From: Catenulispora pinistramenti
GTDB taxonomy: Bacteria; Actinomycetota; Actinomycetes; Streptomycetales; Catenulisporaceae
Length of the DNA: 64,000 nucleotides
NCBI RefSeq assembly: GCF_018274385.1
Contig: NZ_JAAFYZ010000009.1
Coordinates: 1 to 64,000, forward strand
Reading direction: 5' to 3'
Shown: positions 31,921-33,608 of the stretch, one piece after another
Layout: every line of letters begins with the position of its first letter
How positions within the stretch are numbered: the stretch's first letter is position 1
The notes under the pieces: generated by a model
The model's input: the letters and a program-made list of their open reading frames with translations, nothing else
Database searches by the model: none
Told to the model about the DNA's origin: nothing
Position numbers and translations under genes: made by a program

Positions 31921-32369
31921 ATGTGCTCGCGCCCTCCCGCGCTCCCAGCGCTTACCCGCGCGCTCCCACGCTCTCAGATCCCCGCCCTTGGGCCCCTCGC
32001 GCTGATCGCTTGCCGCTCCCCGTCGCTTATCCCATCCTCGCTCATCTTCTCGCGAAGTTTTCCAGAAAGTTGGCGTGAAAGGGGTGACAGCCCCGTTCGC
32101 TTCTGACAGCATGTTCAGCGTCGAGGTTGGGGGCAACTGTGTCGACCGGGGTGGGGGCCATCGGAGCCGGAAAGTTTGGGCTCAAGGGCATAACCGCAGG
32201 TCAAAAATAGTTTGCGGTCCACAATGGGGATCACTTAACCTTCCGATGCGGGCGAGGGATCGCCCAAGGCGCCCCGCGCGCCGCAACTGAAGATTTCCAC
32301 CTGTAAACGTGTGGTGCCGACTGCCAGCGGCTCCTGCCACACCGAGGCGAATGTAAGGAGGCGAGTTCC
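31921..32369. other. Divergent intergenic region between the membrane pair and the whiB7 leader ORF
   Basis: The left half (31921-32100) is free of coding signal and should hold the minus-strand promoter of the membrane pair, which I cannot place. The right half carries a plus-strand promoter (32201-32241) and the start of a leader transcript, with a hairpin GTGTGG (32309-32314)/CCACAC (32337-32342) shortly before the AAGGAGG of the 136-codon ORF. Confidence 0.6.
32201..32241 (+). promoter_or_regulatory. Likely whiB7 promoter with AT-rich box before the -35
   Basis: AT-rich TCAAAAATAG (32201-32210) immediately precedes -35 TTGCGG (32212-32217); 18 bases later comes -10 TAACCT (32236-32241). 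WhiB7 binds sigma-A and uses its AT-hook on A/T-rich DNA just upstream of the -35, including at its own promoter, so this is the expected layout for autoactivation. Transcription would begin near 32248, giving a leader of about 710 bases. Confidence 0.6.
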
Positions 32370-32780
32370 ATGAGGTTGATGACCGATGTCGTCATCGAAG
32401 GCGTGCAGGCCGTGATTCCTGCGCCGGTTTTCCGTGCGTCCGAGAGCTCCGCCTCCGCTCACCGCCTGGTGTCCGGGCAGGAGTGCTTCGGCTCGGCCTT
32501 CGCCGCTGCGCGGGTGGAGTCCGTCTCCGGTACCGGCCTGGCCGGTGCGGCCGGCTTCCTGGGGCTCATCGCCCTGGGTGCGGGTCTGCTGGAGCGGCAC
32601 GGCTATGTCGGTCTGCAGGGACAGGAGCGTCCGCGCCCCGTCACGCAGCCGGTTCTGGCCCAGGCCCAACTGAGTGGCACCTCTGAGCGCGATGACGACG
32701 GCAACGACAGCAGCAAGGGCGACAACGGCAGCAAGCCGATGACCCCGTGGGACTTCCGTACCTCAGGTCCACCCGGATGA
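32370..32780 (+). CDS. Hypothetical 136-residue protein encoded in the whiB7 leader
   Basis: ATG 32370 follows a perfect AAGGAGG 8 bases upstream, the best ribosome site in this stretch, and third-position GC is high, so the frame looks translated. One hydrophobic segment (LAGAAGFLGLIALGAGLL, about 58-75) may be a membrane helix; the tail is Asp/Asn/Ser/Lys-rich. No family recognised. Its stop overlaps the ATG of the 16-codon uORF (ATGA), so ribosomes finishing here could start the uORF that runs into the terminator. It could be an unusual long regulatory uORF or a small membrane protein made before whiB7. Confidence 0.6.
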   Translation: MRLMTDVVIEGVQAVIPAPVFRASESSASAHRLVSGQECFGSAFAAARVESVSGTGLAGAAGFLGLIALGAGLLERHGYVGLQGQERPRPVTQPVLAQAQLSGTSERDDDGNDSSKGDNGSKPMTPWDFRTSGPPG

Positions 32781-32827
32781 AGAACCCTCTTCAGCCGGCA
32801 GGACTTGAGGCCGCGGAATCCCGATAA
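32777..32827 (+). CDS. whiB7 upstream ORF (16-residue leader peptide)
   Basis: MKNPLQPAGLEAAESR, then TAA at 32825-32827. The frame begins at an ATG overlapping the preceding stop, runs through the whole 5' arm of the terminator, and ends in its loop. Ribosome position on this frame would therefore decide whether the hairpin forms. uORF-controlled readthrough of a terminator is established for whiB7/wblC in other actinobacteria. The peptide shows no amino acid run, so the signal is more likely general ribosome slowing by antibiotics than charging of one tRNA. Confidence 0.6.
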   Translation: MKNPLQPAGLEAAESR

Positions 32828-32852
32828 GGGATCCGCGGCCTTCGTGTTTCTC
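32809..32852 (+). terminator. Intrinsic terminator (attenuator) in the whiB7 leader
   Basis: GGCCGCGGAATCCC (32809-32822), loop GATAA, GGGATCCGCGGCC (32828-32840) with one bulge, followed by TTCGTGTTTCTC. U-rich tails are rare in this genome, which makes this a real intrinsic terminator. It sits 110 bases before whiB7 on the same strand. A second hairpin, CCCGGC/GCCGGG at about 32911-32935, lies between it and the gene. Confidence 0.8.
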
Positions 32853-32961
32853 AACGCACGACAGTACGGCCCGCGACGGTGACCCCGGAGCGGGAGCGGT
32901 ACCGCAAGACCCGGCCTGAAGAACTCAAGCCGGGAGCAACCAACTGACGAGGTGACTCACA

Positions 32962-33303
32962 GTGCAGAACGTGTTCGACACGGTCGTCGAGCAGACCGAC
33001 ACCACCCTGCCCTGCCGGGCTTACGACCCGGAGGTCTTCTTCGCCGAGACCCCGGCCGACGTCGAGTTCGCCAAGGCGATCTGCGTCGAGTGCCCGGTGA
33101 AGGCCGCCTGCCTGGCCGGCGCCCTGGAGCGCCGGGAGCCGTGGGGGGTCTGGGGCGGTGAGCTGTTCGTTCAGGGTGTGATCGTCGCCCGCAAGCGTCC
33201 GCGGGGCCGTCCCCGCAAGGACGCCGCGGTGGTCGAGGCCCAGATCGCCGCCGAGGCCGCCGCCGCGGTCGAGGCCGCCAAGAAGGTTGCGATCCCGGCA
33301 TGA
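32962..33303 (+). CDS. whiB7: WhiB7 (WblC), iron-sulfur transcription activator of antibiotic-resistance genes
   Basis: 113 residues from GTG 32962 (GAGGTG upstream). Four cluster-binding Cys at 18, 41, 44 and 50 (C-X22-C-X2-C-X5-C), then the sigma-contact turn GVWGGE (62-67) and the AT-hook RGRPRK (81-86) that distinguishes WhiB7 from other Wbl proteins. The Ala/Glu-rich tail is longer than in mycobacteria. WhiB7 binds the housekeeping sigma factor and switches on intrinsic resistance genes when translation is disturbed. In mycobacteria whiB7 also lies beside uvrD2. Regulation: own promoter, uORF and terminator upstream. Confidence 0.95.
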   Translation: MQNVFDTVVEQTDTTLPCRAYDPEVFFAETPADVEFAKAICVECPVKAACLAGALERREPWGVWGGELFVQGVIVARKRPRGRPRKDAAVVEAQIAAEAAAAVEAAKKVAIPA

Positions 33304-33455: not shown

Positions 33456-33608
33456 ATGCTATTCCAATACGAAGAAGCCGCACGCTACCGATCACAGGAG
33501 CTGCGGGACCAGGCTGAGCGACAGCGCTTCCTGCGCGAGGCCAGCCGTCTGCGCAAGCAGAGCACCCGGCGCGCGCGCCGGACGTTCGCCGGGATGTTCC
33601 TGAACTAG
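33456..33608 (+). CDS. Small Arg-rich helical protein, 50 residues
   Basis: ATG 33456 has AAGGAG 9 bases upstream. The product is one long charged helix: MLFQYEEAARYRSQELRDQA, then an Arg-rich end (RRARRTF). The same frame is open from an ATG at 33300 that overlaps the whiB7 stop (ATGA), which would give 102 residues; the internal start is preferred for its ribosome site. Probably cotranscribed with whiB7. No family recognised. Confidence 0.6.
   Translation: MLFQYEEAARYRSQELRDQAERQRFLREASRLRKQSTRRARRTFAGMFLN

Follow-up and report, generated by a model that had tools for sequence, protein, structure and literature searches.

The whiB7 gene of Catenulispora pinistramenti is very probably controlled by a ribosome-controlled transcription attenuator that is sensed through a leader open reading frame (uORF) of 136 codons; we put the probability of this reading at roughly 0.92. 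The window, that is the whole stretch of DNA that was analysed, was 64,000 nt long, and the features of the leader are listed in Table 1. The parts, their conservation, the covariation of pairing arms and the maintenance of the reading frame come from the present analysis, and conservation, folding and the literature together argue for the mechanism. For the direction in which the switch would work, and for the signals that would induce it, we follow published Streptomyces and Mycobacterium whiB7/wblC work.

Table 1. Features of the whiB7 leader region, with positions in the window
Feature	Position	Strand	Description
WhiB7/WblC-type promoter	32203..32241	+	Sequence, published pattern, genus conservation
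Shine-Dalgarno AAGGAGG of long uORF	32355..32361	+	Sequence; duplex energy about -11 kcal/mol
Long leader uORF	32370..32780	+	136 codons plus TGA; conserved uORF
Antiterminator 5' arm	32756..32770	+	CCGT, then CCTCAGGTCC (32761-32770); within last codons of long uORF
P1 hairpin (CCGG-TGAAGA / TCTTCA-CCGG)	32773..32798	+	Encloses uORF stop TGA (32778-32780)
16-codon ORF of the sequence-only reading	32777..32827	+	ATG start, stop TAA (32825-32827) in terminator loop; judged incidental
Antiterminator 3' arm	32801..32816	+	GGACTTGAGG (32801-32810) and GCGG (32813-32816); overlaps terminator 5' arm
Intrinsic terminator	32808..32852	+	Predicted; stem-loop 32808-32841, U tail 32842-32852; -28.4 kcal/mol
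whiB7 (wblC)	32962..33303	+	113 aa, GTG start; WhiB domain E=4e-16

The whiB7 gene and its promoter

When 60 relatives were searched with whiB7, a single top match was obtained in each genome, with the second match far lower (60/60). The AT-hook match of the product was weak, and the sequence RGRPRK was present. A previous interpretation made from the DNA letters alone (the sequence-only reading) had placed a self-activated promoter of the WhiB7 type ahead of the gene, and this assignment held. The WblC promoter pattern is GAAAWY-N3-TKGMNN-N17/18-TANNNT (PMC7157823). The promoter in the window, consisting of a box AAAAAT (32203-32208), a gap of 3 nt, a -35 element TTGCGG (32212-32217), an 18-nt spacer and a -10 element TAACCT (32236-32241), matched this pattern at the published spacing, the sole deviation being A instead of G at the first base of the hexamer. 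It was kept in all ten genus members and was the only site of the WblC pattern within the 64-kb window, and the exact string AAAAATAGTTTGCG...TA occurred once in the whole 11.5-Mb genome. From the promoter spacing, transcription would be expected to start at approximately 32248, about 714 nt upstream of whiB7, so that the leader between promoter and gene spans some 700 nt. A consensus promoter and terminator scan of the window detected neither this promoter nor the actual terminator, and an Rfam search of the window at gathering level gave no match, so that at this threshold the leader corresponds to no RNA family in the catalogue.

The probable ribosome-sensing frame

The long uORF was found together with its Shine-Dalgarno sequence in 10/10 genus members, where it measured 132-152 codons, and the Shine-Dalgarno duplex was comparably strong in every one of them. 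Its stop codon lies inside the P1 hairpin, 28 nt 5' of the terminator core, and across the class the corresponding distance was 14-31 nt.

The sequence-only reading had chosen a different sensor, namely the 16-codon ORF coupled to the end of the long one, with the position of the ribosome as the switch. On this view a ribosome on the 16-codon ORF would melt or spare the terminator according to its position. Such a string does exist there, its start overlapping the stop of the long uORF as ATGA and its codons extending into the terminator. However, when the leaders of the ten species were compared, the 16-codon frame was not kept. Only 4 of the 10 species had its stop within the arm or the loop of the terminator, one of the four via another frame: the counterparts had 16 codons and ended in the loop (G000, G003), had 17 codons (G005) or 16 codons in the other frame (G006), and otherwise ended after 10 codons (G001, G002) or ran for 33-47 codons, past the terminator (G004, G007, G008, G009). 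This variation arose where the loop stop was lost by substitution (G008) and where indels fell within the P1 loop, beside P1 or in the terminator loop. The ATG itself is forced because the codon GGA precedes TGA at the end of the long uORF, and since the P1 loop varies by 1-3 nt in length, any reading frame across P1 breaks. A sensing role for the 16-codon ORF is contradicted by this comparison and we regard it as scarcely credible. The idea that a uORF stop in the hairpin loop serves as the ribosome switch had to be abandoned with it, the conserved long uORF stopping instead 27-31 nt before the terminator core within the genus. On the comparison of sequences, the sensor is very probably the 136-codon frame ending before the terminator, and a ribosome completing it would block the antiterminator rather than melt the terminator.

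Maintenance of the frame without the peptide

In an alignment made blind to reading frame, all seven distinct indels found inside the long uORF among seven closer species were multiples of 3; of the 19 indels in the leader on either side, just 3 were. In the two clades the dN/dS of the long uORF was 0.76 and 1.27, respectively, whereas that of whiB7 was 0.09 and 0.14. Values were close to 1 along most of the uORF, with the exception of a central hydrophobic stretch (0.33) and of the last 22 codons (0.45), which include the antiterminator and P1 arms. Because the frame was kept while the amino acids drifted, the long uORF looks mainly like a translation track.

The maintained frame and the constrained central stretch in one clade would also be expected of an ordinary protein gene carried on the whiB7 transcript, in which case the terminator would lie between two genes of an operon. 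The dN/dS of approximately 1 over most of the length and of 1.27 in the second clade does not agree with this. The protein had no Pfam or NCBIfam match, and tblastn of the collections searched (genome contigs and plasmids) found no homologue. Moreover, the uORF peptides at the equivalent position across the class look unrelated to one another, and RNA pairing restricts which codons can stand at the end of the frame. A protein gene is for these reasons a very improbable explanation. As a refinement of the translation-track reading we suggest, tentatively, that the uORF might be a length-encoded metering track: selection would keep about 130-150 open codons and leave the peptide mostly free, and the length, rather than the sequence, would set the general ribosome slowing needed to trip whiB7.

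The hydrophobic stretch, GLAGAAGFLGLIALGAGLLERHGYVG, is located in the middle of the long uORF at 32550-32627 (+); the low dN/dS applies to one clade, and in the other the stretch was mostly replaced.

Terminator and antiterminator folds

The U-tailed terminator that the sequence-only reading had recognized 5' of whiB7 was confirmed as a predicted stable hairpin whose core, GGCCGCGG...CCGCGGCC, is conserved in most families sampled; its U tail, TCGTGTTTCTC, is modest. When the rest of the genome was searched for the terminator core, two further palindromic matches were found. The stem of P1 was retained in the ten species, with a loop differing in length and sequence.

The antiterminator fold of 61 nt (32756-32816), which closes over P1, had a folding energy of -37.2 kcal/mol (z -6.9), and antiterminator and terminator have 32808-32816 in common. 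In the minimum-energy fold of the whole 101-nt stretch, a shortened (inner) antiterminator coexisted with the terminator minus its lowest pairs. Since both folds coexist at equilibrium, whether one shuts out the other would depend on the basal pairs and on the timing of folding during transcription, and we infer from these models that the choice between them must be kinetic and would concern the base of the terminator.

The core GGCCGCGG...CCGCGGCC was nearly invariant through most of the class (leaders of about 30 families), which exceeds what the hairpin alone demands, and the pairing of the terminator 5' arm with the antiterminator accounts for only part of it. Another hairpin, GTGTGG...CCACAC at 32309-32344 (+), lies 5' of the Shine-Dalgarno sequence of the long uORF. 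Measured against the sequence of the window itself, its fold did not exceed chance (z -1.0). In the second clade of the genus the hairpin reads GTGCGG...CCGCAC, a paired change.

Pairing arms and uORF ends across the class

Of 109 terminator-bearing leaders, 96 had an ORF that comprised 40 or more codons, followed a strong Shine-Dalgarno sequence and ended at the terminator, compared to 1 of 300 random window places. The median uORF length was 85 codons in the 93 other leaders sampled. In 107 leaders from 30 families, the antiterminator arms formed within-genome duplexes with a mean of -14.6 kcal/mol, and a mean of -12.1 (sd 0.54) was obtained when partners were swapped; the values for P1 were -11.6 and -8.4 (sd 0.51), respectively. 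For antiterminator and P1 alike, none of 500 partner swaps between families was as good as the observed mean, in a test that takes families as independent and that is conservative, not generous, because some families share ancestral antiterminator sequence. In 105 of the 107 genomes the antiterminator duplex comprised 6 bp or more. Between groups both arms change together: the pair is CCTGGAG/CTCCAGG in many groups, CCCTGGAG/CTTCAGGG in family f2, CCTCGAG/CTCGAGG in families f13, f34 and f35, and CCTCAGGTCC/GGACTTGAGG in this genus. With RNAalifold run on the ten species of the genus only, variation was too low for covariation and a two-sided change was seen in one pair only; judged by these alignments, the covariation support for the pairings comes from other families, not from the genus.

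The uORFs also share a C-terminal motif, R-x-W-S-P-P-V-stop in many families and RTSxPPG-stop here. PP-containing peptide ends can slow ribosomes. The recurrence of the motif across the class and its PP would both suit a sequence-specific arrest peptide that halts the ribosome where the uORF ends and thereby sets the switch. Nevertheless, the 5' arms of the antiterminator and P1 encode most of the motif, and several families are without PP. Where the antiterminator arm changes from CCTGGAG to CCTCGAG, PRG takes the place of W, as follows from the altered RNA, and W was lost wherever the arm sequence differed. The motif was judged to be mostly a shadow of the RNA, and an arrest peptide is unlikely. 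That this class-wide motif is an apparent by-product of RNA pairing is a testable proposition.

Proposed mechanism and known attenuators

In the attenuator that we propose, transcription would begin near 32248 at a promoter of the type activated by WhiB7 itself, and ribosomes would load at the strong Shine-Dalgarno sequence and translate the 136-codon leader ORF. Ribosomes abreast of RNA polymerase would reach the stop codon and cover the antiterminator 5' arm together with P1, the terminator would then fold, and transcription would stop before whiB7. If antibiotics or a lack of amino acids slowed the ribosomes, or if none were loaded, the antiterminator would form first over P1 and sequester the terminator 5' arm, and the polymerase would continue into whiB7. 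The WhiB7 made would activate its own promoter. A uORF kept as a frame and not as a protein would explain how one leader answers many different translation inhibitors.

According to the summary in PMC10727445, which refers to Burian and Thompson 2018 and to Lee 2022, the long leaders of actinobacterial whiB7 genes contain a uORF and a terminator, and a stalled ribosome leads to an anti-terminator formed from overlapping uORF and terminator sequences; PMC11550727 and PMC13393426 concur on the whiB7 attenuator. The control type put forward by the sequence-only reading, uORF-dependent transcription attenuation of whiB7, is of this sort and is supported here by the parts and their conservation. 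By its sequence features the leader in the window belongs to the whiB7/wblC uORF attenuators of Lee, Lee and Roe 2022 (Mol Microbiol, doi 10.1111/mmi.14834), an already published kind, since each structural feature tested was found: a WhiB7/WblC gene downstream, the promoter motif, a uORF with a Shine-Dalgarno sequence that stops shortly before the terminator, the terminator and the antiterminator. In the outline of that work, the common elements are the gene, the WhiB7-type promoter, the leader uORF, the intrinsic terminator and an antiterminator shared by the uORF end and the 5' side of the terminator. The present leader differs in its long uORF (136 codons) and its genus-specific arms, and some of its details may already be given in Lee 2022. 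What the present analysis contributes is the corrected sensing frame, the exact map of the antiterminator and the pattern of a frame conserved without its sequence.

The mycobacterial whiB7 leader likewise has a Shine-Dalgarno uORF and, at the 3' end of the uORF, a conserved terminator where attenuation takes place (Dinan 2014, PMC4128351). Its transcription starts about 350 nt upstream of whiB7, in contrast to about 714 nt here, and the uORF here is longer. The ilvB-II attenuator of Corynebacterium (PMC10272879), as reported in PMC11109978, similarly combines a uORF, a P1 and antiterminator sequence and a terminator, and there too the position of the ribosome selects the fold. In that account, the ilvB-II uORF is rich in Ile, Leu and Val codons and senses specific amino acids, whereas that of whiB7 is long and shows no conservation of most of its codons.

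A small ORF downstream of whiB7

Just 3' of whiB7, at 33456-33605 (+), lies an ORF of 50 aa (MLFQYEEAARYRSQEL...) preceded by an AAGGAG site. It had no Pfam match and was absent from the other sampled genera of the family, and family f2 gave one weak match (E 4.5e-4). Within the genus it was present in all ten members examined, with 76-100% identity.
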